Source: Lentisphaerae bacterium GWF2_49_21
GTDB taxonomy: Bacteria > Verrucomicrobiota > Lentisphaeria > Victivallales > GWF2-50-93
Reading direction: 5' to 3'
Assembly (NCBI GenBank): GCA_001804805.1
Contig: MHBH01000017.1
Span: 1 to 64,000, forward strand
Length of the DNA stretch: 64,000 nucleotides
Below are positions 11,702 through 50,972 of this stretch, piece after piece. The notes beneath the pieces were generated by a model that made no database searches, had not been told where the DNA came from, and was given only the letters and a program-made list of their open reading frames with translations. The translations under genes and the position numbers were made by a program. How positions within the stretch are numbered: position 1 is the first letter of the stretch; every line of letters begins with the position of its first letter.

Positions 11702-11724
11702 GGGCGTTTTCGCTTGTAGTAGCG

Positions 11725-12132: not shown

Positions 12133-12145
12133 TTGCCGACTTACT

Positions 12146-12330: not shown

Positions 12331-12355
12331 ATAATGAATTACCGGCCCTCAATGG

Positions 12356-31997: not shown

Positions 31998-32843
31998 TTA
32001 CAGCGACGCCTTGCGTCGCCTACACGCCCAGCACATCTGCGAGACTGTCACGAAATATGATGCAGGAACGCGGTTCAGCACGGATATGAAGACATCGAGC
32101 GCAGTTGTCTTTCCGCCAAGCCCCATCGCGCCTATGCCAAGTGAATTTATTTCCGACAACAGTCTTCGTTCAAGTTTTGCAATTGATGGATCTTTGCTGC
32201 GTTCTCCGATCTTGCGCAGGAACTGCTTCTTTGCTTCGGCGTATCCCGACGCCCTGTCGCCCCCGACGCACACGGAAGTTATACTTGGTGGACATCCTTT
32301 TCCCTGAGCCTTGTATACAGCGTCAAGCACGCAGCGCCTTATGCCGTCAATGTCCCTGCCAGCCCCAAGCTTGTCGTCTGGCAGCGAATATTGCACTCCG
32401 ACGTTCTCGCTGCCTCCGCCTTTGAGAAGCAGCTTGACTTCAAGTTTTTTTGATGCCTTTTCATCCCAGTATATCATCGGACTTCCCGGTCCGATGTTCG
32501 TGCCGTCATTCATGCCGGTGATCGGGCATACGGAGTTCTTTCTTAATAGGCCGTCATTGGTCGCCTTTATTATTGCGGATTCCGCAGATTTCCTGAAAGC
32601 TGCCTTGTCGAAGTTCCGTGGACAACTGACAAAGAAAGTCAACGCTCCAGTGTCCTGGCACAGAGGCTGGTTCCTGTCTTCTGCGATTCTGATATTCTTC
32701 AGGATAAGTTCGAGCTGCTGACGGGCAGGGGAGACATCCGCCTCCTTCTTATAAGCCTTCTTCAAGGCAGATTGGATATCCTCCGGTATCTCACACGATG
32801 CCCGGCATATCAAATCATAAATTTTATCAATTAGGTTCTTCAT
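31998..32843 (-). CDS. Class I (Fe-S) fumarate hydratase alpha subunit / fumarase N-terminal domain
   Basis: A 281-residue protein (start MKNLIDKIYDLICRA at 32843; the longer frame to 32900 has no homologous extension). It matches the alpha subunit of heterodimeric class I fumarases and L-tartrate dehydratases. The three cluster cysteines are visible: PLCQDTGALTFFV, SVCPITGMNDGTN and TSVCVGGDRASGYAEAKK, along with GAMGLGGKTTALDVFI near the end. The active enzyme interconverts fumarate and malate and needs a beta subunit. No beta gene lies on either side here, so it must be elsewhere. The last few codons lie in a 7-base-stem hairpin (GCGACGC/GCGTCGC) next to dispersed repeats, so the C-terminal RKASL may be repeat-derived. 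Confidence 0.85.
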   Translation of the reverse strand: MKNLIDKIYDLICRASCEIPEDIQSALKKAYKKEADVSPARQQLELILKNIRIAEDRNQPLCQDTGALTFFVSCPRNFDKAAFRKSAESAIIKATNDGLLRKNSVCPITGMNDGTNIGPGSPMIYWDEKASKKLEVKLLLKGGGSENVGVQYSLPDDKLGAGRDIDGIRRCVLDAVYKAQGKGCPPSITSVCVGGDRASGYAEAKKQFLRKIGERSKDPSIAKLERRLLSEINSLGIGAMGLGGKTTALDVFISVLNRVPASYFVTVSQMCWACRRRKASL

Positions 32844-32907: not shown

Positions 32908-33435
32908 TTATTTCTTTTCTTTATCTGGCTTTGACGTGCTGTCAGTTGAACGGTCTTTGATTTTAGTGGATATGTACTGTGCTATCTTTTTCGCAAAAGC
33001 TTCAAACATTTCGTCCTTATTCAGCGATTTCGGATAAGAAGAAGTCATCCCCGAAAATTTCCCGGTTTTGCAGTCGAGCAGTTTTCCGTTAAATCGGATC
33101 TCGTCATTTAGATAATATATTCTTCCGGAAATCATGTAATCAACACCCAAGACCTTCCCAGCCCTTATTACTGAATCAGCCCTTACGAGCCCACTTTCCG
33201 AAAGGTCCTGTTCATGCTTTATTTTTTCGACTTTTTCACGCTCTATGAGATTTATCGCTGATTCCTTTGAAAGCTGAGCGAAAAGCAGCAACGATATCTT
33301 TTCGGAGTCTGAGCTCTTGGCTCCGGTGTCATCGACAAAATCGAATATGGCCATAAATACAGGAGCGTCATTTCCAGCATGCGATGCAAATGAAAGCAGT
33401 AATAATAACAGTGATATAAAGATTTTGATTTTCAT
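32908..33435 (-). CDS. Small exported CsgG/FlgO-like protein
   Basis: A 175-residue protein with a signal peptide (MKIKIFISLLLLLLSFASHA) and one CsgG/FlgO-like unit. Diagnostic features are an FMAIFDFVDDTG strand, the SEKISLLLFAQLSK helix, INLIEREKVEKIKHEQ, and VLGVDYMISGRIYYLNDE, the conserved strand that in this fold follows the signature helix. It ends with a charged tail rich in Lys, Ser and Asp. It is the last gene of a six-gene operon, its start overlapping the HEAT gene stop by four bases with GAGGGG just before. No lipobox Cys is present, unlike true CsgG, so a pore-forming role is unlikely. A periplasmic adaptor or sensor role is more likely, but this is inference. Confidence 0.72.
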   Translation of the reverse strand: MKIKIFISLLLLLLSFASHAGNDAPVFMAIFDFVDDTGAKSSDSEKISLLLFAQLSKESAINLIEREKVEKIKHEQDLSESGLVRADSVIRAGKVLGVDYMISGRIYYLNDEIRFNGKLLDCKTGKFSGMTSSYPKSLNKDEMFEAFAKKIAQYISTKIKDRSTDSTSKPDKEKK

Positions 33436-35948
33436 TCCAGCCCCTCCATTGCCCTCTTTTGGAACAATTTGAGTTTATCAGTGAATGTTTCTTTTCTGAC
33501 AAGCTCCAACGCAACAATCTTATTCAATATCGGATCAGCCTTCTTGATTCCTCCGAGTAAAACAAGTGCGTTGCCAGCCGATTCCCTCACCTGGAGATTT
33601 TCATCGTCGAGGCGCTTTATTATCAATGGAAGGCTTTTTCTCGATTCGGGACCTATCTGTCCCATTGCATCAAGAGCCGCTATGCGCAAGGTCCAGTCGG
33701 GACTTGTTTCAACTGCTTTTGCGAGTGCTGGCAGAGCATCATTCCCAAACGTCCCCATACCCCCTATGATCATACATGCTTTGCTAGCGATAAACGGATC
33801 CTTGCTGCTTATACAGGAAATCAGCAACGGCAATATGGATGTTCCCTGTCGTTCAAGCCCTCCAAGTGCGGATTTGACCACGTCATCGTTCGGATCTTGC
33901 ATTGCTTTTAGTAAGGCTTCGACGATCTTGTCACGACCGCGAGGCGATTTATAGGCAATCAGGCTTTTAATCGCATCGACCCTTGCCTTTGGAACCTTGT
34001 TATTCAGAAGTTCTAACGTATTCTTTTCTAGATACTTGGAGGTGAAGTCATCCGGCCATGATGTATCGTCAATCTTGATACTCATCAGGTAATATGCAGT
34101 TTCCCGTTCCTTTGGGTTTTCGGATTTTAACATCTTTTCCAGAACAGGGATGTTCTGCCGATGTATTTTCAAATTCCCGCGAAGGCCATGTGAGAAGTTT
34201 TCAGAAGCCCACTTAAGAATTTTCATCCTATCCTCATCAGTAAGATTATTTTCATATGTCAGAAGGATCAATATATTATGCTTGAAGAATCCTGGACTGG
34301 ACTTGTCCTTGCAAATTTTCAACATTGCATCGGCATACTTGATATATTTGGCAGCATCTCCCGAAACCTTCGCTGCCTCCACAATGACGCTGGAGGAGCA
34401 TAAATGGGTCTTATCCATGAAGAGTTTGACTGCAAAATCGCATTCCTTCGTCTGTCTCATATACCAACACAAATATTCTTCGAGAGATATGGGCACTTCA
34501 TCTTCAATAGGATTTTTATACCTGAGGACAATATCCTTGACCTGTGGTATGAATGAGGCTGAAAAATCCAGATCCTTCTCCGCAGTCTTCAGTATCATCA
34601 ATTTAACAGCTGATGGGTAAGCGCTGCCATCAGCATCGACAAATTCCTTCCTGAGAAAAGCCTTGGCCTTGTCGCTGAATAAGTTCTGCCGGGAAAGCAA
34701 CTCATACAACTTCTCATAGCTCTTATACTGTTTAATATTATCAATCATGTGGTCCGTGACCTGATTAACACCTACGATGCTAATGGCATATGTAATCCTG
34801 TCAGGATTGTCCAGCAGTTTTACAAATTCAGGTTTAACATCATCTCCGCCATCTTTGCATATCATGACGACAATATCAAAAATCCTATCGTCATCCGTCA
34901 TCAGTAATTGAGAAAGCGGTACAGCTGACTGTTTGATATACTTTAAAAGGAAGGGACGCGCCCACCATATGGTTCCATTATGATATCCTTTTTTGAAATC
35001 GTCGATGATGACAGGCACTGCTTTTTCCCCTATACTGTCTGCACATCTGCTGGCTATCTGCCTGTAGTCTGCATTTTCGGATTGCCGCCATTGATCCAGA
35101 ATGATGGTCAACGACTGGGGCTCAGGTATCAGGGAAAGACATTTCAAGGCCTGAGGATGCACCGTCTGCTCCGCGCACAGTTCCTTGACGGCTTTTACGG
35201 TCTCCGCATCGCCGGAACTGATCTTCAGCACTGCCTCCATGGCGCCAAATTTAATCGCAATGTCGTCATCATCATAGAATCTCTTTAGTTTCGCTATCAC
35301 CCCGGAAGCGTCCTTGCCAAATTCCCCGAGGGAAAAAATAGCCCTTTCTCTTGTTGCTCCCTTTTCCAGCGCATCTGATAACGGTGGGATGACGCTCTTG
35401 TCCTTCAGCCTTGCCCTGGTGAAAATGAGATCTTCCGGAGTCCGAGCCAGCTTCTTCAAATATTCCCCGCCCCGATCCCCCATAATGTAAAACAGTTCGA
35501 TTATGAACTCTCCTTCCTCTGAGGCGTTGTACAGCCTTGGTTCACCCTCGTTGTTACAATCACGTGCAAACCTGAAAAGGATATTGGAAAACGGAAGCGC
35601 CTGCGAGGGGTATTTTTTCAGGTATCGCCTATAGTGTTCGATATGGTGTTCATATTCGGAAAAGAAATATTTTTTCCGGAATGACTTCTCAAGCTCCCAG
35701 CTGATGTAAGGGGCGTATCTGTTCCTGAAAGAGTCGACGAACTTCGAAGTGAACTTGCCGTCCCGTTCGTTCCACGAGGAGAATTCTCCAAAAGTGCCAA
35801 TGCTGGGCATCAGGCAACTTGTAGCTAGTCCGTCTGGCGACTCATCTCCATTCTCATCAAAATACAACTCTCCTTGCAGGCTGAATGACATGAGTGCAAG
35901 CAATATCAGCAGAAAAAAAACAATAGGAAAACTATTTGTTTTCGGCAT
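33432..35948 (-). CDS. Large exported HEAT-repeat protein
   Basis: An 838-residue protein with a signal peptide (IVFFLLILLALMSFSLQG). Its body is an alpha-solenoid: HEAT/PBS-lyase-type repeats are clear at about 180-270 (KDKSVIPPLSDALEKGATRE, RAIFSLGEFGKDA) and 660-810 (KMQDPNDDVVKSALGGLERQ-like units, ALPALAKAVETSPDWTLRIA, SLPLIIKRLDDENLQVRESA). HEAT solenoids are scaffolds for protein binding. The gene overlaps its upstream neighbour by 17 bases and its downstream neighbour by 4, placing it firmly in the CsgG-like operon. No enzymatic motif is seen. It probably provides the scaffold of the envelope complex encoded here. Confidence 0.8.
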   Translation of the reverse strand: MPKTNSFPIVFFLLILLALMSFSLQGELYFDENGDESPDGLATSCLMPSIGTFGEFSSWNERDGKFTSKFVDSFRNRYAPYISWELEKSFRKKYFFSEYEHHIEHYRRYLKKYPSQALPFSNILFRFARDCNNEGEPRLYNASEEGEFIIELFYIMGDRGGEYLKKLARTPEDLIFTRARLKDKSVIPPLSDALEKGATRERAIFSLGEFGKDASGVIAKLKRFYDDDDIAIKFGAMEAVLKISSGDAETVKAVKELCAEQTVHPQALKCLSLIPEPQSLTIILDQWRQSENADYRQIASRCADSIGEKAVPVIIDDFKKGYHNGTIWWARPFLLKYIKQSAVPLSQLLMTDDDRIFDIVVMICKDGGDDVKPEFVKLLDNPDRITYAISIVGVNQVTDHMIDNIKQYKSYEKLYELLSRQNLFSDKAKAFLRKEFVDADGSAYPSAVKLMILKTAEKDLDFSASFIPQVKDIVLRYKNPIEDEVPISLEEYLCWYMRQTKECDFAVKLFMDKTHLCSSSVIVEAAKVSGDAAKYIKYADAMLKICKDKSSPGFFKHNILILLTYENNLTDEDRMKILKWASENFSHGLRGNLKIHRQNIPVLEKMLKSENPKERETAYYLMSIKIDDTSWPDDFTSKYLEKNTLELLNNKVPKARVDAIKSLIAYKSPRGRDKIVEALLKAMQDPNDDVVKSALGGLERQGTSILPLLISCISSKDPFIASKACMIIGGMGTFGNDALPALAKAVETSPDWTLRIAALDAMGQIGPESRKSLPLIIKRLDDENLQVRESAGNALVLLGGIKKADPILNKIVALELVRKETFTDKLKLFQKRAMEGLE

Positions 35949-38900
35949 AATATTTTGTCTCCATATCCGCGATTACCTCCTTGAATGGCCTGCCATAGAG
36001 AAGTACGGCCGATTTGGCTGTCTCATGGATTTCGGGATCAATCGGTACTCCAATCAATGCTTGGATGTTTCCCGCGAGCCCGAAGCCCTCGAAAAGTCTT
36101 GCTCTTTCTTTCGCCTCGAAAAGATAAGCGTATTGGACTATGAATTTCTTCATGAACTCCTTGTTGACATTCCTGAGACTATAGCGTGGCACCCTGCGGT
36201 CGCGGCGATCATTAGCAAGAATTGCAGCCAAGGCTTTCTCCCTGCCCGCCTCCGCCAGCATCTGGAACACTATTGCACGGATGTCATTTGGATTATAGCT
36301 GTATTCATAAAAAACCTTTCTGAGCCATTTCGGATCCGACATGAACGCCAAGGCTTTCTCGTCGCCGGCATAGGCCCTGTAAATCACTAATTCCAAGCTG
36401 TCATACGGAGCGTTGCCAGTTCTCCCCGCCTCCATGACAGAAGCAGTTTTCACGACATCCCAGGCCTTTGCCTCATTGACGACTTTCGTGCCGATTGCTA
36501 TATTGTTTTTAGCGAGGACATCGGCCGCGAAAAGGTACTCCAGTTTGAAGCTGTATTTGTTTCTGACGCATGAAGCGTATTCCTTTTCTAGACGGAAACC
36601 AAGGTATTCCATTGCAGTTCCTTTCCAATCCATCTGGGACTCGGAATCGTAGAATGGTATCCTGGCATTCGGATACTTTGCGATTCCCTGGATGAGCTTG
36701 AAGAAATCCTTTTCACTTCTCTGGACAGTCGTATTCTTCTCGAATTTGGCGGTGAAGATCGGGTTTTCAGGTGTGAACCATTCATCTGCCCAATATTTTC
36801 TAGTCGAAAATCTGGCGCCCCCTTTGTCGCTGATGGTCGGATTGACAGCAACAGGAGTCATTACCCTCTTTTTCCTGACGGCTGAGTCCGTGGCAACGAG
36901 AATGCTGCTGCTGCCAGCCAGCGACTTGGCCCGGTTAAGGGTATCAGGATTGACATTGACTCCGCGCTTGGAAAGTTCATTCAGCAGTTCCACCTCCAGG
37001 GCATACATTCCGGCGGAATGATAATTCATTGCGAGTTGTTCGCCTATCCTGTTGTCACGGTTGCTGCTCCATGCCTGTTCAAGTATATTTATCGCCATCA
37101 TGTAGTCTCCCGCCTTGGCGATCTCCGATGCCATGGACAGCGCAGACTTGCCGTCGGCAGCCGTCTCCGCAGAAGGAAGTTTTTGATCCATATCATGCAT
37201 GCCGTAAAATATTCCCAGCTCCTCAATATTGTCAAGGAAGATCTGTTTGCCCGCCTGGAGAAGCGGATCCCTTTCAGCCTTGCAGACCTTCAGCGAAGAG
37301 CACCACTTGCCTATTGCTGACGCGACATCGTCGATGTTCCCAGACAGGCAGAGACTATCCACAACCCTGGTTGACATCAGATCGGTTGCCATGAAAAGAT
37401 ATGATGTCTTGTCCTTTTCCTTCCACATCCTTCCGGAAATCAGAAGATCTGCAAATGCGTCAGGGGGAAGACTTACTCCGGAATTCTCAAGCAGGAGCCT
37501 TTCCCGGATACTGATGCCCCAGTCCTCGCGAGAAAGAAGGCTCTGGCCGAGAAGCTTGTCAGAAGCGCCGAAGACTATGGATTCGGAAATCGACTTGTAC
37601 TGCAATATCTGGTCGGGTTGCTCCACCGGCAGGAAAGGGGTGTAGATAATGTTCTTTGGGATAATAAGCTTTTCTCCGGCTGGTGCAGAAACATTGCAGC
37701 TTTTTGCAGCAAGCTCTCTTATCTTGGAAACAAGAGATGCCGTCAGCTGGTCATATTTGCCAGCCTCAACGTCATTCAACCCAATGCGACCGATTCGCCA
37801 GGACTGCGAGTCAACCGCGTTAGTCCATCCATCCGTCAGCCTGGTGAGCCAAAGTTCAACTCCGTTTCCAGTCTCATCTGAATAGTCCCTGAGTCTTACG
37901 GCGAAATCAGGATTTCTAAGCCAGAACCTATCGCGTTTTTCCTTTGGTAGCTTTTCAATCATCATCTTAAGTATCTTGTCGGAATTGACTCTGTCCATGA
38001 CTTCTATGTCCTTTTCCTTCAGCAAACTCTCGACAACTTTGGTATAAAGTGCAACTTCGAGGAGACCTGTACCCTTGAAGCACATCTCCTCCTTCAGAAG
38101 CCCCACCGTCAAAGGCCCTTCCATCGGTATCCTGGGAGGACGCTGGTTCCCCTTCGACCGCGACACAGCTGTAGTAGCCGATTGACCCTTGTTTGCTTTG
38201 CAAAATACACTGTATCCCCTGTTCCCATTGCTTGAAAAAGGGCGGTTGATGGAATATATGTCCAGATAGAAGTCCTTGACCTTCAAACCTTCGACATAGC
38301 CTTGCGTTCTCATGATGCAGTTAGTGAATGCAAGATGATATGTGTATTCATTGCCATAGACCAGTTTCTGGTCGTTGTCTACGAACGATGTCTCTTTCAG
38401 CTCGCATGTCTTGATTAGCTGTTCGTTCCTGTATATGCCTATTTTAGGAAGAGACAAGAAGTTCTTCGGCTCGAACCTTTTCGCACAATCATCCCATGAA
38501 AGGGCAATTCCATTCTCGTCGGAACTGATTTTCGGCATAGGCGGATTAGGGGGGAAGATGAATTCAATTGTATCTTTTTTGATGATCGCCGGCGGGTTGA
38601 CGGATACATCGGCTATCGCATATGTCAGAGTTACCATCGGACTGCCGATGAAAAACATGTGCGTCCTGCTGTTTTCAGTATCCACAGGCACATCTTTACC
38701 GTCGAGAAGCACCTTCTGGAAGAAAAACTTGGTATTGCTTTTCAGGTTCGATTCGATATATCTGTCCGAGTCATTGAAATAAGGCAAGACATACTTTGCG
38801 GGATTCTCGTTGGGAGAAGCGTCAAAGAGCTTGAAATCAAGAGTCCTCTCCTCTTGTTCTGGATAAGCAGGCTCCTTCGAGCGCCAGCATTCATTCCTAT

Positions 38901-40173
38901 TAACTTTAATCCGCAGATTCATCGAGAATTTCCTTGGCTCTTCGGGAAATTCACCGGACACCGCCTCCTTCAAGTCATGTGGGGAACAAATTACTGTCTT
39001 GCCATCTTTCAGCTTTATGACCTCAGCAATGTATCCATTTTCAATCTTCTCGCCATCAGGATATGGAGACCAGGACCATCCCTTGTCGGAAATAACGGGC
39101 TTTGAATACAGGAAGGCCTTCACGGGAGGAAAGGCTTTCAGCAGTTTTCCATTCTGCTCGCACACTTCAATTTTGTAATAGGTGCAATTGCTGTTTTCAG
39201 CCGTCTTCCCCATATCACTTAGATATATCTTTGTCGTGCCTTGAACTTTGTTTGGTGAATAGTTGAATTTCTCATCTCCCCTGAAGAGTTTTTCCGCTAT
39301 AAGCTTGAAACTGCCATTCCTTTGCATTCCACGATACAGCTTCACATTTATCGGCTTCACCTTCCCATCAGAAAAAATCAGTTCTCCGGATATCATTCCA
39401 TACAGGTTGTCCTTGACCCAATAACTTTCCAATGCAATCAGCCAGGAGCTGAATGGCCCATTTTCATGATTGGAAGGAGCAGGCATAGAGACGCCAGTCC
39501 CATTGCTATCGCCTGCATTTCCCGAATCAGCAACCGGTTGTGAATAAGTCACCGTCATCTGAGGCATTGCTTGTCTGGGGGGTGAATCGCTTTTACGGAG
39601 AAAATGGATCACGTAGCCAACGCATGAACCTATTACAAGCAGAAGCAGAAGGACTTTGCCGGCTGTTAAAATCATCCTGGAATTAATTGCGAGGCCGATT
39701 CCGCTCTTCCTGGATTTTTCGTCCGGTATGCTTGGAACACCCTCCATGCGCCTGCCGGTCATGAAATTGTATCCGCATTCCACGCAGATAACTGAATCGG
39801 ACTTTGATTCCTCAAGGCAGTCGGGACAAACCTTTTTTCCGGGAGCCCCCTTTGATGAATTTACTGGTGGAGGCGTCGGGCTTCCGTAATTTTCATTGCT
39901 GGAAGAGGACTGGGGAGATGCGCCCTTTTTTAGAGGAACTGGAGGATTCGTGAATTTCCGGGTTTCCGGAAGGTTGGAAGACTCCTGCTTCTTGGCATGA
40001 TAAGTCCCTTCAACGGTGCTCGTGCCGATGTCCCTATGTACCTGCGTCTCGTTTTCAACGACATGTGGAATTACGATTTGATTTCCGCATTTCTTGCAGA
40101 CAAGGACTTCCCCGGGCTTTTTCTGGAAAGTGATGACTTCCATCCCGCAGCTGCAGACAACCTTGATAGCCAT
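35932..40173 (-). CDS. Giant single-pass protein: two zinc ribbons, membrane helix, FN3-like and CsgG-like domains
   Basis: With the start at ATG 40173, just after a strong CAGGAGGGGGAT, the protein has 1,413 residues. Two zinc ribbons occupy the N-terminus: Cys7, Cys9, Cys26, Cys29 and, about residue 115, KVCPDCLEESKSDSVICVEC. One helix follows near 170-190 (AGKVLLLLLVIGSCVGYVI). The remainder should be periplasmic. An FN3-like fold is near 555-640 (ISSDENGIALSWDDCAKRF). CsgG-like segments appear at about 700-800 (LEVALYTKVVESLLKEKDIE, VMDRVNSDKILKMMIEKL) and about 870-960 (ISIRERLLLENSG, LLISGRMWKEKD), followed by TPR/HEAT-like helices. Cytoplasmic ribbons and a periplasmic tail suggest it links the two compartments. 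The family is not one I can name. Confidence 0.75.
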   Translation of the reverse strand: MAIKVVCSCGMEVITFQKKPGEVLVCKKCGNQIVIPHVVENETQVHRDIGTSTVEGTYHAKKQESSNLPETRKFTNPPVPLKKGASPQSSSSNENYGSPTPPPVNSSKGAPGKKVCPDCLEESKSDSVICVECGYNFMTGRRMEGVPSIPDEKSRKSGIGLAINSRMILTAGKVLLLLLVIGSCVGYVIHFLRKSDSPPRQAMPQMTVTYSQPVADSGNAGDSNGTGVSMPAPSNHENGPFSSWLIALESYWVKDNLYGMISGELIFSDGKVKPINVKLYRGMQRNGSFKLIAEKLFRGDEKFNYSPNKVQGTTKIYLSDMGKTAENSNCTYYKIEVCEQNGKLLKAFPPVKAFLYSKPVISDKGWSWSPYPDGEKIENGYIAEVIKLKDGKTVICSPHDLKEAVSGEFPEEPRKFSMNLRIKVNRNECWRSKEPAYPEQEERTLDFKLFDASPNENPAKYVLPYFNDSDRYIESNLKSNTKFFFQKVLLDGKDVPVDTENSRTHMFFIGSPMVTLTYAIADVSVNPPAIIKKDTIEFIFPPNPPMPKISSDENGIALSWDDCAKRFEPKNFLSLPKIGIYRNEQLIKTCELKETSFVDNDQKLVYGNEYTYHLAFTNCIMRTQGYVEGLKVKDFYLDIYSINRPFSSNGNRGYSVFCKANKGQSATTAVSRSKGNQRPPRIPMEGPLTVGLLKEEMCFKGTGLLEVALYTKVVESLLKEKDIEVMDRVNSDKILKMMIEKLPKEKRDRFWLRNPDFAVRLRDYSDETGNGVELWLTRLTDGWTNAVDSQSWRIGRIGLNDVEAGKYDQLTASLVSKIRELAAKSCNVSAPAGEKLIIPKNIIYTPFLPVEQPDQILQYKSISESIVFGASDKLLGQSLLSREDWGISIRERLLLENSGVSLPPDAFADLLISGRMWKEKDKTSYLFMATDLMSTRVVDSLCLSGNIDDVASAIGKWCSSLKVCKAERDPLLQAGKQIFLDNIEELGIFYGMHDMDQKLPSAETAADGKSALSMASEIAKAGDYMMAINILEQAWSSNRDNRIGEQLAMNYHSAGMYALEVELLNELSKRGVNVNPDTLNRAKSLAGSSSILVATDSAVRKKRVMTPVAVNPTISDKGGARFSTRKYWADEWFTPENPIFTAKFEKNTTVQRSEKDFFKLIQGIAKYPNARIPFYDSESQMDWKGTAMEYLGFRLEKEYASCVRNKYSFKLEYLFAADVLAKNNIAIGTKVVNEAKAWDVVKTASVMEAGRTGNAPYDSLELVIYRAYAGDEKALAFMSDPKWLRKVFYEYSYNPNDIRAIVFQMLAEAGREKALAAILANDRRDRRVPRYSLRNVNKEFMKKFIVQYAYLFEAKERARLFEGFGLAGNIQALIGVPIDPEIHETAKSAVLLYGRPFKEVIADMETKYYAENK

Positions 40174-40287
40174 ATCCCCCTCCTGGTCAATTAATATTGG
40201 AAAACACAGGCCCACGCCTGCTATTCCAGCACTCCATATTACTATACATTCTATAATGTAATTGCATAATTCAAATTCCCTTGCCCG

Positions 40288-43200
40288 TCACTTGTCCATC
40301 TTTGGCTTTGGAGACAATTTCCACAGCTGGGTGTCTTTGACGAAATAAAAGAGTTCGGGATTCCCCATGGTCAGGAAACTCCCGGAGGGCCCCTCGAAAT
40401 GCTTGTTGCAGCTATTGTAAATGCCTGAAGTTGAGCCGTTATTGCTCAAGAGAAGATCCCCGATGGGGAAAACAGGCCATTTATAGATAGATAAACTGAA
40501 TTTTGGATTGCTCCCCTTGTTAGGACTCGTCAGGACAACCTTCGAGAGGGATGGCGTCGACAGCTTGATTGTCTCCTGATAACCGCTGAAGTCCTCGTAG
40601 ATCATTATACCGTCCGGAATAAAATAGAAATCAGATATTCCCATGCTGCATGCATGGAACTTCTCGAGATTGCCATCTTTGTTGATTTTCCATAATCCGC
40701 CAATTCCAGTTTTAAATTCGGAATCGACCGAGAACCATATGGTGTTCTCATCTTTTACCGTGATGATTTTTGTTATCAGGAATGGCTTGCCGTCCAGTTC
40801 ATTCTTAGGAGTGGCATTTTTCGTTGAAGCAATTAAGTCAAATTTATTGTTCTTGATGTCATATGAATAAAAAGCCCCTGTCCTGTATCCGGATTTGAAG
40901 CCCATGTACAGCTTGCCTCCCATTTCTGCCATCGAGATTATGTTCTTCGAGGGAAGCCCATCCTCCTCAGTCAAAAGCCTTGAACCATTGGGGCTGATTA
41001 TAATCAAACCTTTGGAGCCAGCTAGTGTTGAGACGAATACGGAGCCTGGATCGGTAATCACGATCGATGTTATGCTGTTGTATAGCCCGGAAGCCTTAAG
41101 CCTGCCGACTTCAGTGGTTTCGAGTGTCTTCAAGTCGGTCTTTGTGGCAATGACATAATCTATCTTGTCATCTTTTTTCCCGCTCCAAATGCAATAGATG
41201 CAATTATTCGCCACTGTCATCCCTTCAATACGATAAGCATTTGCAGGTTTGCTTATGTCGGCAACCTTCTCGGTCAGGAAGGAATCCCATGGTGTCGGAG
41301 ACGCAGCCTCTTTTTTGATAGTCTCTGCCTTCAGTTTCATCTGGTTGTTGTAATGCTCGACAGCTTTTATTGTCGGCTCCAGCCGGATCGAATAATTATA
41401 TAAATCCGTATCTTTTTTATCCTTGATCTTCTCTCTCTCCAGATACAGGACGGAAAGGAGTCTTGCGCTCAAATCAATGGGAGCCTCAAGTTCATCCTTC
41501 TTTAGAGTATACCACATCCTGTCCAGCCAGCTCGTTAAAAGGACTTTGAATACCGTGAGATGGTAGGCGTCTTTCTCGGTGATGCACTTCTCGATACGCG
41601 CGGCAAGAAGAGTATTCAGGTCAGCAACTGACATGTTCATCGAAGGGGAGAAATAGCTGTCAAGCATGTCATATGTTGAATAGCCAGTGGTTTTAGCTGA
41701 CACCTCATCCATGACTATGCTGATCGACTTGATCTTGCATTCACCATCCGGCAGTGCCTTCATGTGCCCGAGCATGAGCCAGGCCTTCGCCCTGATGAGA
41801 GGATCCTTCCTCTCAGTCAGCCATTTTGCCAGCTCGATAAGTTTTTCAGTTCTCTGCTTCCAGGCGAATTTGTTGTTCGTCTCATTTTCATAGAACATGA
41901 ATGAGGCAAGGCAGTTTGCAAAGGAGTCACGTGTGCCAGGAGATATTTCCCTTGAGGCCGCAATCATCTCAAATTCAGTGACCATGTCCTTGACGATCCC
42001 TTCGTTGTCGATAAAACCCTTTAGGCAATCTATGGTTGAGATTATTGAGCCGCAGGCGGATACGTTGTCAGCCTTATAGTATTTTGAATTGCTTTTCCCG
42101 GTCCTAAGCATATCCCCGAAATAATTTCTCCTCATAGCGACTTCTTCCAGCCTTAACCTCTTCAGCTCGCAGGCAAGCTCATAGTCCCTCCGTCCCTTTG
42201 CCGGATCGTCCTGGATGGACATGAAGTATTCATCGCCTCCCTTGCCAGTTCCATAGAATGATATATTTTCAATGCCTGGCAACCGATCACCGTTTTTTAT
42301 TGCACTGTCGAGTCTTGCGATCTCCAGTTCCTTCTTTCTTATTGCAGCCTTGAGCTTTGTCGTGAAGGGGAGGGGCCTGTCATCAAATACTCTCCCCCAG
42401 GCGAGAATTGCTGCATTGAGATATTCATCCTTTGAATCCAGCAGAAGGGCGGACTCGCAGAGTTCGGCCGATTTCAGGAAATTCTTGTCAGTGGCAAACA
42501 CCTTTGATTCTGCAAAGAGTTTCTCCGCCTCCAGTTTCTTGTCCTGACCGCCGGAGGATTTGACTTCCTCGTTGAATCCATCAAGTATGAGCTTATTGAT
42601 CTTCTCTTTGCTTTCCTTGATTTTCGCCAGTTCCAGCTCAAGGCTTTTCTTTATGCCTCCGGAGGCAAGCACCTTGGAGAAATCAACAGTCAGGTTCAGT
42701 TTTCCCTCGTTAGTCCTTCTTATTCCGCCCCTAAGCATTATTGCAGATGCTTTAAGTTTCAGTTCATCGCCGGTCAGGACGGACTCCTTCGAAAGGAATT
42801 CGGCGTGTTTCCTGTCAAGAAGGATCATATTGTCAATATCATTGAGCCCGTTCTGGATAATATCCTCGATCTCAGCCGCATAAGGTTTCAGGAAATCCCC
42901 TGGCTCCTCGTTGAATATCCCTGAAATGCAAAGATAAGCGCGGCTTGCATCCGGCTGTGAGAATCTCTTCAGTGTTTTAGCAAGCGCCTTGTCCAGACCG
43001 GAAAAGTTCTTCTCCTCGAAATCCTTTTCAAGGATCAGGCATTTCTGGAGCAGGACAGCCGTTTTCAACTCAATGAAGGTCAACTGATATTTATTGTCAG
43101 GCTGCTTCTCTATTATTATGAACATGTCTGCGCGTATTAGGCGGCCAAGCTGCAGGATGGACTCGGGATTGCCGGAATTCTCAGCTGAGATATTGTGCTC

Positions 43201-43437
43201 CTTGAGAATCTTCCTGATGTTTTCACGTTCAATCAGTTCCAGGCCGGTTACGCTGCCCATTTTCATGAACAGCATGTCCTCATAGGCGATTGAATCGGTA
43301 TTATTTGGCATTCCGCTGATCAGCGCAGCCTTGAGCTTCCTTGCCCCGTCGGCCTGCAGCGCCTTTTCCTGCGCCTGAAGATGGCAGGAGAAGATGCAGA
43401 ATATCAGGAACAGATATATTTTCTTGACGAAATTCAT
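40288..43437 (-). CDS. Exported protein with two CsgG/FlgO-like units, helical middle and propeller-like tail
   Basis: A 1,049-residue exported protein starting at ATG 43437 (signal NFVKKIYLFLIFCIFSCHLQ), which overlaps the stop of the preceding gene by four bases. The first CsgG-like unit (about 25-150) has LELIERENIRKILKEHNISA and LGRLIRADMFIIIEKQ. The second (about 165-280) has MILLDRKHAEFLSKES and ASAIMLRGGIRRTNEGK. A charged helical region follows (about 310-730), then a C-terminal run of beta blades from about 760 (GMTVANNCIYCIWSGKKDDK, GGKLYMGFKSGYRTGAFYSY, ENTIWFSVDSEFKTGIGGLW) like a beta-propeller. It is a paralogue of the next upstream gene. The function is unknown; binding roles are likely. 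Confidence 0.75.
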   Translation of the reverse strand: MNFVKKIYLFLIFCIFSCHLQAQEKALQADGARKLKAALISGMPNNTDSIAYEDMLFMKMGSVTGLELIERENIRKILKEHNISAENSGNPESILQLGRLIRADMFIIIEKQPDNKYQLTFIELKTAVLLQKCLILEKDFEEKNFSGLDKALAKTLKRFSQPDASRAYLCISGIFNEEPGDFLKPYAAEIEDIIQNGLNDIDNMILLDRKHAEFLSKESVLTGDELKLKASAIMLRGGIRRTNEGKLNLTVDFSKVLASGGIKKSLELELAKIKESKEKINKLILDGFNEEVKSSGGQDKKLEAEKLFAESKVFATDKNFLKSAELCESALLLDSKDEYLNAAILAWGRVFDDRPLPFTTKLKAAIRKKELEIARLDSAIKNGDRLPGIENISFYGTGKGGDEYFMSIQDDPAKGRRDYELACELKRLRLEEVAMRRNYFGDMLRTGKSNSKYYKADNVSACGSIISTIDCLKGFIDNEGIVKDMVTEFEMIAASREISPGTRDSFANCLASFMFYENETNNKFAWKQRTEKLIELAKWLTERKDPLIRAKAWLMLGHMKALPDGECKIKSISIVMDEVSAKTTGYSTYDMLDSYFSPSMNMSVADLNTLLAARIEKCITEKDAYHLTVFKVLLTSWLDRMWYTLKKDELEAPIDLSARLLSVLYLEREKIKDKKDTDLYNYSIRLEPTIKAVEHYNNQMKLKAETIKKEAASPTPWDSFLTEKVADISKPANAYRIEGMTVANNCIYCIWSGKKDDKIDYVIATKTDLKTLETTEVGRLKASGLYNSITSIVITDPGSVFVSTLAGSKGLIIISPNGSRLLTEEDGLPSKNIISMAEMGGKLYMGFKSGYRTGAFYSYDIKNNKFDLIASTKNATPKNELDGKPFLITKIITVKDENTIWFSVDSEFKTGIGGLWKINKDGNLEKFHACSMGISDFYFIPDGIMIYEDFSGYQETIKLSTPSLSKVVLTSPNKGSNPKFSLSIYKWPVFPIGDLLLSNNGSTSGIYNSCNKHFEGPSGSFLTMGNPELFYFVKDTQLWKLSPKPKMDK

Positions 43438-46400
43438 TTTTGGCCACCGGCTTTGATTTGGAGTTCGGCTTTTTTCTTCAAATCCTCGAATTTGCATGAA
43501 ATTATTGAAGGGGATGAGGGCATTAGGATTCTGTCTTCCAAAGTGATTAGGCTTAAAAGGCTCGCGGGATCAAGAACACTGATGTCTTTTAACTTGGCTG
43601 AAATGCGTGAATAGTCAACTGGAACAAGGTGTGCCTTGGAATTTTCAATATCATACAAGAAAAGAGAATTTCCGTCCCATGGCTGGGCAATGATATAGTT
43701 CTGCAGCATGACTGGCGAATTGAGATTATAGTTTTTGCCAGTTTTGATTTTAAGGATATCAGGGAGCTTGACGGATATTTCATCTATATTCCTGCATCCA
43801 GTAAAGAACTTTTCATTTGAACTGCTTTTGAAGATTAAAAAAGCCATGTTTGGACCAGAAATGAAAATTCCATGAAGAATCTGCCTTAAAATGTCAGCTT
43901 CAAGAGAATTGACATCTTTCAACTGGCCATTGCTATACATAAAATGTCGCGGAACATTGCCATCCTTTACACATAATAGAATATTGTTATTTCCAAGATT
44001 AATAATGCTTTCATAGATGAGGGATTTATTGTCAAGAGGCGTTTCCGGTGGATTGCGTCTGGAAGACGTAACAAGGCTTGCTTTGCCTTTTGTAATATCT
44101 ATAGATATTATTCCTTGTTCCTTAATGCCTGTGTTAGGGGCCGCAAATAAATAAAATCCATAAATGAAATTCCCGTCAATGCATGTTTTTGTGATGAGCT
44201 TGTCCTTTGTTTCGATGCTTTTCCAATCCTTGGTTTTCCTGTTATAAACATGTACCCGCTGTTCATCAGGGACAACAATATATTCGTCGGAGACAGACAT
44301 GTCATTTAATGAAAGTCCTTTGTTTTCGGGTGAGTCCTCAATTATTTCGTTTGTCTTCAAAGCCTTTGAGATTGAATATATGCTTCCCTTGTTGCCCTGG
44401 AAGACTCGGACAAAAAGCGAGTTGCCATTTTTGACAGGCGCGGTGAGCGTATAGTAGTAATTCTCATTGATTCCACGTTTCTCATTGTATGGGAGCCAGA
44501 ATTCATCGAATATCAAGATGTTCTCATGGGAGCTTTCCGTTTCAAGCTCTGGCAGTCTTGCAGCTATTATGGTTTTAAGCTTATTAAAACAGTCAGTCTG
44601 TTTGACTTTCCTGTATTCTGCAAGCTGCAGATGAAGGCTTTTAAGCTGGCTGTCGCTCAGCTGTTTATGAATATTATCAAGATGGATAATGGTAAAGATG
44701 GCAGGTTCAGGATTCACGCGTGGATTACGAATCAAATATTGTAGATATCCTTCAATTATTTTAAAGGTGACATCTTTTGAAATATAGTGCTCAAATGCGA
44801 TCTGATTGAACCATAATTCCTTTTTATATATCTTGTCAATGTTTGCGTCGGCAAGGTTGTTTAACAGGCGAATTGTCTCCTTGTCTTCTTTCCTGAAGAA
44901 TCCTTTGAAATTCCTTAGTTTGAACCATAAGCCGTCCGCCTGAAGCTGAGGGACTTCCGATTTGCAGAGGCTATTTACGAAACTTTTAAATTCAGTGTCC
45001 AATGCGTCATCGGAGAGTTTTCCTGACCAGTCGATGAAATAAGGAGAATGTTCGTCCCTGTGAAGTGATATCATCTCCCTGAGGAGGTCACAGAAGCCCG
45101 TTCCAGCTTTCTCCCTTGATTTCAGGAGGAGTTTTATATATTCGGATTCCGTGTCTTTGATATTGTCCTGCCAGAATGGGATATATGAACCGGCGATAAT
45201 ATATAATGATGTTCCAGTATTGGTTTTATAATTGAACAGAATTTCAGAAACTTCACGTAAAAGTTTTCTCAAATATGCTGTTTTCATGCTGTCTTTGGTT
45301 ATGCATTTCTGCTCGTAATAGCATCTGAGCAGCCTCGATGAGGCAAGTATGGTATATATTCCAAGTTCTTTTGCGGTATCAATATGGGCAGTGTTAATTA
45401 CTTCGGGAATTTCTTCGTTCTTCTTCATCTTGTCGGAAAAATAACGTTTGTAAAGATCCATGGCGGTAATTGCTGAATCTATGTGGCTGTCATCCTTGCT
45501 CACATCAATCAAATTCGGGGTATAATGCAAGGACAGATCAATCCCTTCCGGTATTGGATAAGAGGCATATGAATAAGAAGCAATCCTAAGGCTTTGGATT
45601 CCAGGTTCCGCACACCCAAGCGACCATGCTGATTCACATGCCCCGGCCGCCTCTTTGTATAGGCCGCATTGAAATGCCCATTTCGCCTCTTCAAAATATT
45701 TACGTGCTTCATCCTCGGTTTTCCAATCAGCCGGGCTCGAAGTCATTTCAATTTTCTTCAAAAAGGCTTCCGTCAGCCTGTCACAAAGTTTTGGCAGGGC
45801 ATCCTGCTTGCCGGAATCAATTATGTTGAATGTCTTGCCGTCAGGCAGGTTGATCAGCATTTTTACATTCACTTTGCCGTCGTCCGTGACCTGCATGCTC
45901 CCTTCTAAGAGATACCTGCCTGTCTTGAATCCGGCATCCTGATTATTCAGGTAATTCTCGAAAACAAGCTTGGAAATGTCTTCTCTTTCTGTGACAAGGA
46001 TGTTTTTTTCAACCATCAGCCTGTATTTGAACAGGGCATTCAGCTGGTTCTCCAGTTCAATAAGCTCAGGTGATGCAGACGGGAGGCGGAAACGGAGAAA
46101 TGATACAGGAATCTTTTTGGAATCATGTATCCCTGTTTTCCTTATGTTCTCTTTGAACTGCCATTTGACGGCCTTCGGCCATTTCATTGTTTCAGAATCA
46201 GCTCCTGCTTTCCAAAAATTAAGATCTATGATTATGCCCGAGTCAACAGATACCAGCCTGGAGACGATGTAATCAGCATTATTCAATTTCCTTTTGTCGA
46301 TAATTATCAGCGTGTCAGCCCCGATTTTCCTGCCCAGTCCGCTAATATTGGCGGATGCTTTTGAGATTTCGTATTCTCTGATTATATAGTTCCAGGAAGA

Positions 46401-46571
46401 ACGCTCAAGAACTGAGATATCCTTATCCTGGGAAAGTTCGGCTGTCAGAAGATCCATTTCCTTCTGCAGATCCCCCTCATTCCCGATTACTGCGATCTTC
46501 GTCTGCGCCTGGAGATGGCCACAGACAACACAGACAAGAATTGCAATGACTGTTTTTAAAACGGAATTCAT
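43434..46571 (-). CDS. Exported CsgG/FlgO-like paralogue with propeller-like tail
   Basis: A 1,045-residue exported protein (signal MNSVLKTVIAILVCVVCGHL) with the same plan as the 40288-43437 product. CsgG-like unit one (about 25-140) contains ISVLERSSWNYIIREYEISK and LGRKIGADTLIIIDKR; unit two (about 155-280) contains ILVTEREDISKLVFENYLNN and GRYLLEGSMQVTDDGK. A helical middle leads to a beta-rich C-terminus from about 700 (SLFVRVFQGNKGSIYSISKA, DEYIVVPDEQRVHVYNRKTK). The gene is AT-richer to the eye than its neighbours outside the operon, but I could not compute this. It sits 26 bases after the small CsgG gene and overlaps the next gene by four bases. It has no clear ribosome binding site. 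Confidence 0.75.
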   Translation of the reverse strand: MNSVLKTVIAILVCVVCGHLQAQTKIAVIGNEGDLQKEMDLLTAELSQDKDISVLERSSWNYIIREYEISKASANISGLGRKIGADTLIIIDKRKLNNADYIVSRLVSVDSGIIIDLNFWKAGADSETMKWPKAVKWQFKENIRKTGIHDSKKIPVSFLRFRLPSASPELIELENQLNALFKYRLMVEKNILVTEREDISKLVFENYLNNQDAGFKTGRYLLEGSMQVTDDGKVNVKMLINLPDGKTFNIIDSGKQDALPKLCDRLTEAFLKKIEMTSSPADWKTEDEARKYFEEAKWAFQCGLYKEAAGACESAWSLGCAEPGIQSLRIASYSYASYPIPEGIDLSLHYTPNLIDVSKDDSHIDSAITAMDLYKRYFSDKMKKNEEIPEVINTAHIDTAKELGIYTILASSRLLRCYYEQKCITKDSMKTAYLRKLLREVSEILFNYKTNTGTSLYIIAGSYIPFWQDNIKDTESEYIKLLLKSREKAGTGFCDLLREMISLHRDEHSPYFIDWSGKLSDDALDTEFKSFVNSLCKSEVPQLQADGLWFKLRNFKGFFRKEDKETIRLLNNLADANIDKIYKKELWFNQIAFEHYISKDVTFKIIEGYLQYLIRNPRVNPEPAIFTIIHLDNIHKQLSDSQLKSLHLQLAEYRKVKQTDCFNKLKTIIAARLPELETESSHENILIFDEFWLPYNEKRGINENYYYTLTAPVKNGNSLFVRVFQGNKGSIYSISKALKTNEIIEDSPENKGLSLNDMSVSDEYIVVPDEQRVHVYNRKTKDWKSIETKDKLITKTCIDGNFIYGFYLFAAPNTGIKEQGIISIDITKGKASLVTSSRRNPPETPLDNKSLIYESIINLGNNNILLCVKDGNVPRHFMYSNGQLKDVNSLEADILRQILHGIFISGPNMAFLIFKSSSNEKFFTGCRNIDEISVKLPDILKIKTGKNYNLNSPVMLQNYIIAQPWDGNSLFLYDIENSKAHLVPVDYSRISAKLKDISVLDPASLLSLITLEDRILMPSSPSIISCKFEDLKKKAELQIKAGGQK

Positions 46572-46597
46572 GTTATAATTTTTTGCTCCGCAAAAAA

Positions 46598-47533
46598 TTA
46601 TTTCTTAATTAGTTTCGGGAGGATGCGTTCTGCGATCTTCGCAGATGCCTCCTGCAGGGACTTCTTGCCGGCGACTTGTTCGGCCAAGTCGACTTCGGCG
46701 GTGGTCTGTTTGTCGACGGCGACCACATTGCCAGCCTTGTCAACAACCTTGACTTCGAGACGGGATTTTATGCTGACAAGATTTCCGCGGCGGCCTGCGA
46801 ACTCGCTGAAGCCTTCACCCTTGATCGTAAGTTCCGCATCATTCTCGATAGTGGTCACTTCAAACCCGAGTTCCTTGCAGATCGCCTGCATCTCGGTCTC
46901 TGCGGCGGGATCAATTGTAACGGAGCCCACATGCCGTTCCTCTATCTTCACATAGACTTTCGGCTTCTTCCCATCGCCAACAGCCTTTTTAAGGTCGGCT
47001 ATGAGATCCTTGCGCTCCCTGATCTCGGGCATGAGCTTCTTGGCGTCCTTTGAAATAGTCTCATTGACTTCTCCTGCAAGCTTCGTGGCAAGAGCGTCAA
47101 GCGCATCCGTTCCATCGACGCTTTTACCAAGCACGCGGCTGGTCTCAGTGCTGATTACCTTGGCCACAAGGAAAGTCTTGTCCTTTACCTTGAATACGGA
47201 ACCTGTCAGGAGGATCTTCGCTCCGGTGAGCTGTCCGATCTGTATTGCCTGGCCGGGATTCACCGCCCCGGAGATGTTGAGTTCGGCTTCCTTGAGGATC
47301 TTGTCGAGGTCCGTCCTTTCAACCATCCATATGTTCGGGTTTGCCGACATCTTCGCGAAGAGGATGTTCGCCGCCTGTTCCCCAAGTCCGGCCACTCCGG
47401 TTCCGGATTCCGTGAACGGCAGTACTGCAACAGTATAGACTTCGGTATTGACAGCCTCCTGTTTCTTTGCATCTTCCTGGGCGACCGCTGAAAGTCCGAC
47501 AATCAGCGCCATCATCAGCATGAGTTTCTTCAT
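46598..47533 (-). CDS. Exported CsgG-family protein heading the operon
   Basis: A 311-residue protein with signal peptide MKKLMLMMALIVGLSAVAQ and one clear CsgG-family domain: YTVAVLPFTESGTGVAGLGE, ANILFAKMSANPNIWMVERT, DLDKILKEAELNISGAVNPG and IGQLTGAKILLTGSVFKVKD, matching the core of the CsgG/HfaB/curli-assembly family. A second small domain (about 195-290) carries KPKVYVKIEERHVGSVTIDP and GFEVTTIENDAELTIKGEG, resembling a secretin/POTRA-like beta-alpha fold. It lacks the lipobox Cys of true CsgG. GGAGGAATAAA precedes the ATG, the strongest ribosome site in the operon, fitting a first gene. It is the most recognisable member of the cluster. Confidence 0.85.
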   Translation of the reverse strand: MKKLMLMMALIVGLSAVAQEDAKKQEAVNTEVYTVAVLPFTESGTGVAGLGEQAANILFAKMSANPNIWMVERTDLDKILKEAELNISGAVNPGQAIQIGQLTGAKILLTGSVFKVKDKTFLVAKVISTETSRVLGKSVDGTDALDALATKLAGEVNETISKDAKKLMPEIRERKDLIADLKKAVGDGKKPKVYVKIEERHVGSVTIDPAAETEMQAICKELGFEVTTIENDAELTIKGEGFSEFAGRRGNLVSIKSRLEVKVVDKAGNVVAVDKQTTAEVDLAEQVAGKKSLQEASAKIAERILPKLIKK

Positions 47534-47557: not shown

Positions 47558-47672
47558 CAGGCATCAGGCACAAGGCATTAGGCAACAGCTTTGTGTCAAA
47601 GAACAAGGCAACAGTTTCAAGAGAAGGCGACAGGCATTAGTAAATAGATAAAAGTAATCAAGCATTAGGCAC
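47558..47672. repeat. Degenerate GGCATTAGGCAACAG array, left flank
   Basis: Low-complexity DNA built from AGGCATCAGGCACAAGGCAT, TAGGCAACAG and AAGGCAACAG-like units on the plus strand. It runs to just inside the stop codon end of the four-helix-bundle gene. The opposite flank at 48095-48262 carries the complementary strand of the same units, so the gene is framed by inverted arrays. Confidence 0.65.
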
Positions 47673-48045
47673 CTATATGGTTGTTGTGTTGAGAAATTTT
47701 ATCGGTCAAGCTTATAAGCATTTTTGAAACTTCCTCGCATATGCCATTCAGTTCATGACAATCAGCATCTTTCAGGAATGACAATCTTCTGGATATTTCA
47801 AGTTGTGTCTGTAATTCATATAAGGAACCAAGTGATATCTGTAGGAAACGAATATAATCTCCTGTGGATCTCCTGCCGTAGCCTTCTGCAATATTTGAAG
47901 GAATTGAAACAGCTGCCTTTCGTATTTGATAGGCGAGTCCGTATTCTTCATTCTTTGGGAGTGCACTTATCTTCCCATAGGTTTTGACGACTAATTCCAT
48001 TGCTCTCTGCCATACGATTAAATCCCTGAAACTTTCGATCTTCAT
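47665..48045 (-). CDS. Four-helix-bundle protein of the 23S rRNA IVS type
   Basis: A 126-residue protein of the TIGR02436 four-helix-bundle family. Diagnostic segments are FRDLIVWQRAMELVVKTYG, YGLAYQIRKAAVSIPSNIAE, GYGRRSTGDYIRFLQISLGS and LYELQTQLEISRRLSF. Relatives are encoded in intervening sequences of 23S rRNA genes and scattered singly in many genomes; the Avd accessory protein of diversity-generating retroelements has the same fold. No 23S rRNA or reverse transcriptase gene is nearby. AAGGA precedes the ATG. It is framed by inverted low-complexity arrays, which suggests a mobile cassette. Its cellular role is not established; nucleic-acid binding is plausible. Confidence 0.9.
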   Translation of the reverse strand: MKIESFRDLIVWQRAMELVVKTYGKISALPKNEEYGLAYQIRKAAVSIPSNIAEGYGRRSTGDYIRFLQISLGSLYELQTQLEISRRLSFLKDADCHELNGICEEVSKMLISLTDKISQHNNHIGA

Positions 48046-48094
48046 AAAATCCTTGCCTTTTTGTTTTATTTTCTAATTCCTGTTTTCACTTGCC

Positions 48095-48262
48095 ATCCCT
48101 ACACTCTAATACCTCTTGCCTAATGCCTGTTACCTCTTCTCTGTTCCCTTCTCTCTGTTGCTTCCTGCCTGATATTTCTATTTCCTGTTGCCTATCGCCT
48201 CCCATTCATTCCTTATTTTCTGTTGCCTGTTGCCTATTGCCTGTTGCCTCTTGCTTAATCCC
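48095..48262. repeat. Degenerate TTGCCTGTTGCCTATTGCCT array, right flank
   Basis: About 165 bases of CCTATTGCCTGTTGCC-type units, with TAATGCCTGTTACCTCTTCT sections. It runs into the last 20 codons of the neighbouring 48206-49153 gene, whose C-terminus (GIKQEATGNRQQATENKE) is simply the translation of the array. It is inverted relative to the array at 47558-47672. Confidence 0.7.
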
Positions 48263-49153
48263 AGCAATCAATTTTTCGAGCAAGTACACCGGCGTCGGCG
48301 ATTTCTCAATCTTGCCAAAGATGTCCCAGGTGAATATGACAAGTTCACCTTTGCCTATCTTCGCCGACATGAACGTGAAGGCATTCTTGTTGCCGGACAC
48401 TTCGATCCCAGCTCCGGTATCGACAGGCACCAAATTAAGCGATTTCTCGTTCGGCGGCGAATCTCCCCATTTTTCGGAATCAAACTTTTTATCGAAATCC
48501 ATGATTTTCTCGTTCCTCGATAAAATCATATTCCTGAATGATTCTGTCTTAAGAGGAAGAATGCCTGCCTTGGGATTTATTATCAATATATTTGTTCCTG
48601 CGGAACAAATATTGACCAGTTCCTTTTCAAGGCCGGAGAAATTACCAAAGTCCATGCCCGTGATTATCAGGAGCTTATCCTTGAATTCTGCGAAGTTCGC
48701 AACATCCGAAGTCACCACTCCGAGGGATTCGAAGAGTTTCTTGGCTGAATCATCACCGGAAGGAGCCCACAGTCCGATCTTCATCTTTTCGAGGAATTTC
48801 TTCTTGAAGGCGAAGGGATTTGTGGAGAAGAAAATGATGCTTTTCAGGAGTTTTTTGTCGCCGGAGACGCAGGTGAGTTCGGCGGTGGTGCTGACGCCCT
48901 CCTTGATCTCCGGGAAGGTGAATTTAAGTTCTATGGCGCCGGTTTCTGGGACAGCGAGTTCCGCGGCGGCGATTGTCAGGCCGGAATATTTCAGGTTCCA
49001 GGAAAAGTTCTTTCCATTCAGTCCATCCGCCTTGATATTGATGACGGTCTCCCTTCCGGCGTAGAAGGTCTGCGGAGAATCATATTTGAGCTCCGCCGCA
49101 GAGAGGGAAATTGAAGCCGTCAGCCCACAGATTACACAGATAAAACTTTTCAT
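48206..49153 (-). CDS. Exported protein with two Ig/Rossmann-like parts, unknown function
   Basis: A 315-residue exported protein (signal MKSFICVICGLTASISLSAA). Residues 22-110 are beta-rich and resemble an Ig-like domain (YDSPQTFYAGRETVINIKAD, SWNLKYSGLTIAAAELAVPE). Residues 125-290 look like an alpha/beta fold of the glutamine-amidotransferase-like/ThuA sort (LFESLGVVTSDVANFAEFKD, KLLIITGMDFGNFSGLEKEL, GTNILIINPKAGILPL), without visible catalytic residues. The C-terminal 18 residues come from an invading repeat array. It lies 60 bases downstream of the anti-sigma-like gene on the same strand and is probably part of that operon. I do not recognise a named family. Confidence 0.65.
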   Translation of the reverse strand: MKSFICVICGLTASISLSAAELKYDSPQTFYAGRETVINIKADGLNGKNFSWNLKYSGLTIAAAELAVPETGAIELKFTFPEIKEGVSTTAELTCVSGDKKLLKSIIFFSTNPFAFKKKFLEKMKIGLWAPSGDDSAKKLFESLGVVTSDVANFAEFKDKLLIITGMDFGNFSGLEKELVNICSAGTNILIINPKAGILPLKTESFRNMILSRNEKIMDFDKKFDSEKWGDSPPNEKSLNLVPVDTGAGIEVSGNKNAFTFMSAKIGKGELVIFTWDIFGKIEKSPTPVYLLEKLIAGIKQEATGNRQQATENKE

Positions 49154-49213
49154 ATATCTATCCTTATATGTTAATTAGACGCACCAACCGCAAGAATCTT
49201 TGCGGATATCATG

Positions 49214-50868: not shown

Positions 50869-50972
50869 GGCCTTCTCTCAATAGCTTTAGTAATTAGACG
50901 CGGCATTCACGGAAATCTTTGCGGAATAACGAAAATAATATCTTTTTCTTTTTCTGCCTCTGTAACTCGTTG

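Follow-up and report, generated by a model that had tools for sequence, protein, structure and literature searches.

CsgG, the curli channel, carries two transmembrane hairpins per subunit, and CsgG, PelC, LpoB and LptE are lipoproteins; LpoB, GNA1162 and LptE are single-domain lipoproteins with known or proposed outer-membrane partners. TolB unites a CsgG-like alpha/beta domain and a beta-propeller in one periplasmic protein, and RpoE/RseA combines an extracytoplasmic function (ECF) sigma factor with a single-pass membrane anti-sigma factor and an autoregulated promoter. PelC, of Pel exopolysaccharide export, assembles into a ring of 12 subunits in which the TPR part of PelB is held (PMC12141448), and the membrane-coat-like proteins of the Planctomycetes-Verrucomicrobia-Chlamydiae (PVC) group have an N-terminal propeller followed by a C-terminal solenoid, the studied member being found in the paryphoplasm (PMC2799638). 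Here we describe a gene system that shares features with each of these. It was found in a window of 64,000 nt (the whole stretch of DNA analysed, to which all positions refer) on contig MHBH01000017.1 of Lentisphaerae bacterium GWF2_49_21, and it is composed of a widespread core, the secreted protein A with one or more giant proteins, and a rarer D-E-F module of Lentisphaeria. A conserved unit with its own predicted control is well supported.

The initial annotation had described six minus-strand open reading frames (ORFs), A to F, and these were matched exactly, with starts for A at 47533, B at 46571, C at 43437 (ATG, MNFVKK...), D at 40173 (ATG, MAIKVV...), E at 35948 and F at 33435 and spacings from A to F of 26, -4, 114, -17 and -4. 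However, the head of the operon had been missed. An ECF sigma factor, an anti-sigma-like protein, a protein named X and a conserved promoter of its own precede A, so that the earlier description was incomplete rather than wrong and the operon starts upstream, at about 50868. The features are as follows.

50893 to 50920, minus strand: ECF-type promoter AAAGATT-N14-GTCTAAT before the sigma gene; perfect match to a motif derived from 24 sigma upstreams.
50323 to 50868, minus strand: ECF sigma factor, 181 aa; Pfam and NCBIfam matches, same position in relatives.
49214 to 49948, minus strand: anti-sigma-like protein, 244 aa; from hydropathy, iterated-profile relatives and a weak NCBIfam anti-sigma match.
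49174 to 49201, minus strand: second promoter copy, upstream of X; perfect match.
48206 to 49153, minus strand: X, secreted, 315 aa, Ig-like plus Rossmann/GATase1-like module; from the X profile, fold by eye.
47665 to 48045, minus strand: S23/IVP four-helix protein gene between X and A; Pfam 23S_rRNA_IVP, 8.8e-38.
46598 to 47533, minus strand: A, secreted, 311 aa, CsgG/LpoB/PelC-like domain plus a second alpha/beta domain; from Pfam, an AlphaFold2 (AF2) model and Foldseek.
43434 to 46571, minus strand: B, secreted giant, 1045 aa, with tandem CsgG-like N-terminus; relatives after A, member of alignment A3.
40288 to 43437, minus strand: C, secreted giant, 1049 aa, two CsgG-like domains, alpha-solenoid and beta-propeller; from an AF2 model, Foldseek and hhalign.
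35932 to 40173, minus strand: D, 1413 aa, Zn-ribbon-like, transmembrane helix and two CsgG-like domains; from hhalign, the same architecture in L086 and L188, and the transmembrane helix.
33432 to 35948, minus strand: E, secreted, 838 aa, conserved N-terminal segment and C-terminal HEAT repeats; from Pfam and alignment with L086, L046 and L188.
32908 to 33435, minus strand: F, secreted, 175 aa, single CsgG/LpoB-fold domain; from Pfam and counterparts beside E in three genomes.

A search of GTDB contigs with the A profile gave 140 relatives, 80 of which were kept; most of the genomes are metagenome-assembled genomes (MAGs), and genes in the relatives were called with a simple longest-ORF script. 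A occurs in Lentisphaerae, Kiritimatiellae, Planctomycetota and Verrucomicrobia; a small number of relatives are from Colwellia, Gilvimarinus and a Desulfobacteraceae MAG. Of 388 genomes sampled from the phylum of the window, 56 have A at E<=1e-40. Lentisphaerae, Kiritimatiellae, Verrucomicrobia and Planctomycetes show the order sigma, anti-sigma, X, A, giant(s) repeatedly, and X-A-giant is present in Colwellia and Gilvimarinus too. Neighbours were compared with 196 background genes located more than six places from A, and because the loci were found through A these synteny counts are biased towards it. X stands at position -1 or -2 of A in 52/67 loci (0/196 background genes) and a CsgG-type giant at +1 to +3 in 38/65 (1/196). 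A sigma gene lies near A in 26/60 loci (2/196), and anti-sigma relatives are located near A, beside the sigma gene, in 26/61 (0/196). Relatives of B follow A in L055 (1e-80) and L062 (2e-62).

The D-E-F order is kept wherever the contig permits, namely in L046 (G027), L189 (G078) and L188 (G089), three other genomes that all belong to Lentisphaeria and come from two other families. D-E-F is divergent from X-A in L189, and in L188 anti-sigma-X-A-D-E-F are collinear in one operon, which is the window order minus B and C. The D architecture is the same in L086 and L188, and the N-terminal cysteine pairs are kept in D of L086/L189 and L188. The E and F families can be aligned over their length, F being 34-36% identical to its counterparts beside E in three genomes. 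According to the initial annotation, the idea of a conserved system would fail if the six families were not found together in other genomes. The idea withstood this check for A-B and for the D-E-F triple, including the collinear arrangement in G089; no second genome with the complete set A-F was found. Serial duplication of CsgG-fold genes behind a common promoter, giving a loose cluster of paralogues and not one machine, would explain why the related giants B and C stand side by side, why more CsgG giants are scattered in the host genome and why A occurs without D-E-F too. We regard this as quite unlikely, since membership and order are kept across phyla and the D-E-F order is unchanged in the three genomes from other families.

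The sigma factor matches Pfam Sigma70_r2 (5.6e-16) and r4_2 (1.7e-7) and, above its cut-off, NCBIfam sigma70-ECF (1.2e-21). Hydropathy of the anti-sigma-like protein gives a short cytosolic part, one transmembrane helix at 54-79 and a periplasmic part; the NCBIfam anti-sigma match is weak. Judged by sequence, an ECF sigma factor, a membrane anti-sigma factor and an autoregulated promoter are all present, as in RpoE/RseA, whereas the -35/-10 elements (AAAGATT-N14-GTCTAAT) are the system's own and the effector operon is another, undescribed one. The promoter element is near-identical, with the same spacing, in loci of Planctomycetes and Kiritimatiellae. In an unbiased dyad count AAGA...TCTA was found in 13 of 24 sigma upstreams, whereas 20 shuffles gave no more than 4. 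The motif was matched at 11 or more of its 14 positions in 17/27 sigma upstreams versus 6/196 control upstreams, a comparison that is partly circular, as some of those sigma upstreams had served to derive the motif. An independent test is the scan of the 5.9 Mb host genome, which contains four perfect copies, where 0.05 are expected from base composition; of the two window copies only the sigma copy had been used in motif derivation.

Copies 1 and 2 are those of the window, which precede the sigma gene and X. The third is located just before a 1089-aa CsgG giant on host contig 78, and a homologous giant of G003 likewise has the motif in front of it. Two tandem secretin-domain genes (Pfam Secretin 1.9e-17 and 3.3e-13) begin 206 bp after the fourth, and G001 has a gene related to this pair 344 bp behind a motif copy. 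Outside the operon, a second giant and secretin-like proteins of the host genome are probably under the control of this sigma factor too. The secretin pair itself (L256:7170-9851 and 10187-12808, host contig 78) carries Secretin and Secretin_N in each protein, seemingly as duplicated modules. A search for an own promoter copy before A or D in the window found none, which fits an operon read from X.

The fold of X (Ig-like plus Rossmann/GATase1-like) was assigned by eye. The X profile also matches a GH2 glycoside hydrolase of the host genome through a common Ig-like/Rossmann-like module. In an X-anchored search the best-scoring stand-alone X ORFs adjoin A; for four weaker stand-alone X-like ORFs adjacency to A was not established. 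A comparison with NCBIfam left B, C, D and X unnamed.

The initial annotation had assigned CsgG/FlgO-like segments to five of the six proteins and a HEAT solenoid to the sixth. The latter is confirmed for E (Pfam HEAT_2, 1.9e-28), whose N-terminal segment carries a conserved DxxGxxSxxG. For Pfam CsgG PF03783 the gathering score is exceeded by A (1.3e-11) and F (4.6e-9) but not reached by B (0.0049) and C (0.28), and D is without a match. The match in A covers only positions 5-99 of 210, and when PDB sequences were searched with the A profile, all that came up were CsgG matches below the threshold. F of L188 is marginally above the Pfam FlgO cut-off (22.9 vs 22.6 bits). The weaker cases were settled by profile-profile comparison. 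In hhalign the CsgG domain of A matched giant domain 1 at 99.0% and giant domain 2 at 96.1%, the giant-family profile consisting of C, B and 27 relatives, and F matched D 838-970 at 92.2% (E 5.8e-7). Control segments outside the CsgG-like domains were near zero, except giant domain 1 against the C-terminal domain of A (22%). The assignment holds for A and F by Pfam, for two domains in B/C and for one in D by hhalign, but the first CsgG-like domain of D (676-834) is weak (<=15%).

The AF2 model of A (pLDDT, the predicted local distance difference test, 88.5) confirmed the CsgG fold, with a CsgG/LpoB/PelC-like domain at about 28-170 and a second alpha/beta domain at about 188-311 that carries a conserved DPAAETE motif. 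Ranked by target TM-score, the C-terminal domain of LpoB comes first among the Foldseek matches (0.70), GNA1162 reaches 0.66, and PelC, the CsgG pre-pore form, LptE and TolB are matched as well. For C the model is of moderate quality (pLDDT 68.8) and confirmed the tandem CsgG-like arrangement (28-150 and 155-300), followed by an alpha-solenoid at about 300-705 and a beta-propeller at about 720-1043; many beta-propellers were matched, TolB among them. Among the other giants of the system, one (L122:10852-14964) has a terminal FGE-sulfatase domain and further ones have FG-GAP, PQQ or FlgO matches, and therefore the C-terminal part varies. The host genome also encodes a 1581-aa protein with transmembrane anchor, CsgG-like, TPR and HEAT parts (L202:1865-6607, contig 33), as if a C-type and an E-type protein had been fused. 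More CsgG-type genes are located outside the regulon on its contigs 5 (L044), 49 (L203) and 86 (L045), some by lipoprotein-like genes.

The curli channel CsgG has its fold in common with A (N-terminal domain), with F and with giant domain 1. In difference to it, the giants are multi-domain and the model of A has no inserted transmembrane hairpins, its strands 107-116, 119-128 and 134-141 being linked by short loops. As had been stated for the CsgG-like proteins before, no strict lipobox is present in any of A-F of the window; a loose pattern was found in 7/67 A relatives. No csgA/B/E/F was recognised among the neighbours in the window or in relatives (a genome-wide search was not made), and no flagellar genes were recognised in the operon (the rest of the genome was not searched for them). 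In view of lipobox, hairpins and context a curli, holdfast or flagellar assignment was rejected, in agreement with the initial annotation.

A is structurally matched to PelC, but PelC is a lipoprotein that acts together with the PelB barrel, and no pel-type genes were recognised in the window's operon or in relatives. That PelC and CsgG are among the folds closest to A, and that PelC holds the TPR part of PelB in its ring, would suit an export apparatus in which PelC/CsgG-like rings of A/F surround a solenoid/propeller conduit and, together with the secretin-domain proteins of the regulon, move a polymer or protein across the outer membrane. The secretin-domain genes behind a perfect promoter copy and the T2SS-F, T2SS-F and T2SS-E genes that in G004 (L062:13701-17440) lie downstream of the giants, at a distance of a few genes, point the same way. 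However, A has neither lipid anchor nor membrane hairpins, no beta-barrel, substrate or synthase gene was recognised in the operon, and T2SS genes near the giants were seen in a single genome, so that we consider such an apparatus unlikely.

The LpoB, GNA1162 and LptE proteins share the alpha/beta fold, and F passes Pfam LpoB (7.8e-6, 26.3 vs cut-off 22.3 bits). Together with LpoB, the PBP1B activator, as best structural match of A by target TM-score, this might suggest that A/F bind and activate peptidoglycan synthases upon wall damage signalled through sigma. We judge such control of wall synthesis very unlikely: the NCBIfam LpoB equivalog cut-off of 110.55 bits is far above F (28.1) and A (17.6), A/F are not lipoproteins, no penicillin-binding protein gene was recognised nearby, and LpoB systems have no counterpart of the giants.

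In TolB, which belongs to the tol-pal operon, the propeller comes directly after the alpha/beta domain. In the giants there are two alpha/beta domains, a solenoid of about 400 aa separates them from the propeller, and no tol/pal genes are present in the operon. Like the PVC membrane-coat-like proteins they are large PVC proteins uniting beta-propeller and alpha-solenoid, but the domain order is reversed in C and the giants start with CsgG-like domains. For D it had been suggested that a zinc-ribbon member crosses the inner membrane, and its sequence agrees, with N-terminal Zn-ribbon-like CxC/CxxC pairs, a predicted transmembrane helix at 161-194 and a putative periplasmic part with the CsgG-like domains at 676-834 and 838-970.

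Because of the folds, the secretion signals, the inner-membrane span of D and the sigma/anti-sigma control, we favour a reading, which we hold to be somewhat probable, in which the proteins form a periplasmic scaffold or transport complex that is switched on by the sigma factor and linked to maintenance of the outer envelope. The single-pass anti-sigma factor, facing the periplasm, would hold the ECF sigma factor, which when free may transcribe its own gene and X-A-B-C-D-E-F from the dedicated promoter. The proteins A, D and F and the giants B and C would be periplasmic and built from the ring-forming or partner-binding fold of PelC, CsgG, LpoB, GNA1162 and LptE, the giants and E would contribute solenoid and propeller scaffolds, and D could anchor the assembly in the inner membrane with its zinc-ribbon-like motifs in the cytosol. 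The likely role would be an inducible scaffold that aids transport or maintenance when the outer envelope is disturbed. We infer this biochemical function from fold and context, and likewise the physical complex, its inducing signal and its cargo or target.

Several observations weigh against the scaffold or transport complex. Many loci, those of Colwellia and Gilvimarinus among them, have X-A(-giant) with no sigma/anti-sigma pair adjoining it, and D is rare, being found in 4/388 sampled genomes of the phylum (the window, G078, G089 and G015) and in G027. In L189 no promoter is evident before D, and most relatives show none before X; the secretin link is weaker than the others because the genes start 206-344 bp downstream of the motif. 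Only tentatively, with the odds somewhat against it, do we propose the wider view of an unrecognised PVC-wide envelope machine, a periplasmic complex of tandem CsgG/LpoB-fold, solenoid and propeller parts with D as inner-membrane anchor in some lineages, its own sigma factor and cross-phylum promoter, and possibly secretin-like partners.

The combination had been noted as matching no named system, and no description was found in the open-licence literature: no paper was retrieved on CsgG with ECF sigma factors and Planctomycetes or Rhodopirellula, or on the CsgG family and Lentisphaerae, although a description outside open-licence sources is possible. Known are the ECF sigma/anti-sigma control logic and the CsgG/PelC/LpoB fold; the effector set is undescribed in the literature searched. 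The system occurs in Planctomycetes, Verrucomicrobia, Kiritimatiellae and Lentisphaerae, bacteria with unusual and poorly understood cell envelopes. The promoter motif allows the regulon to be tested directly in culturable planctomycetes, and the X-A-giant core is accessible in Colwellia.

The S23/IVP gene between X and A is probably an insertion outside the system. It is flanked by degenerate short repeats (ggcaacaggcaata-like; region 47566-48256), and most relatives have no such gene there; L065 has a 124-aa ORF at the matching site. The fumarase gene (31998-32840), which lies close downstream of F, was rejected as an extra member, since none follows F in L046 or L188; L189 ends there. Elsewhere in the window, an ORF at 14779-15213 resembles an ExbD/TolR-type protein.

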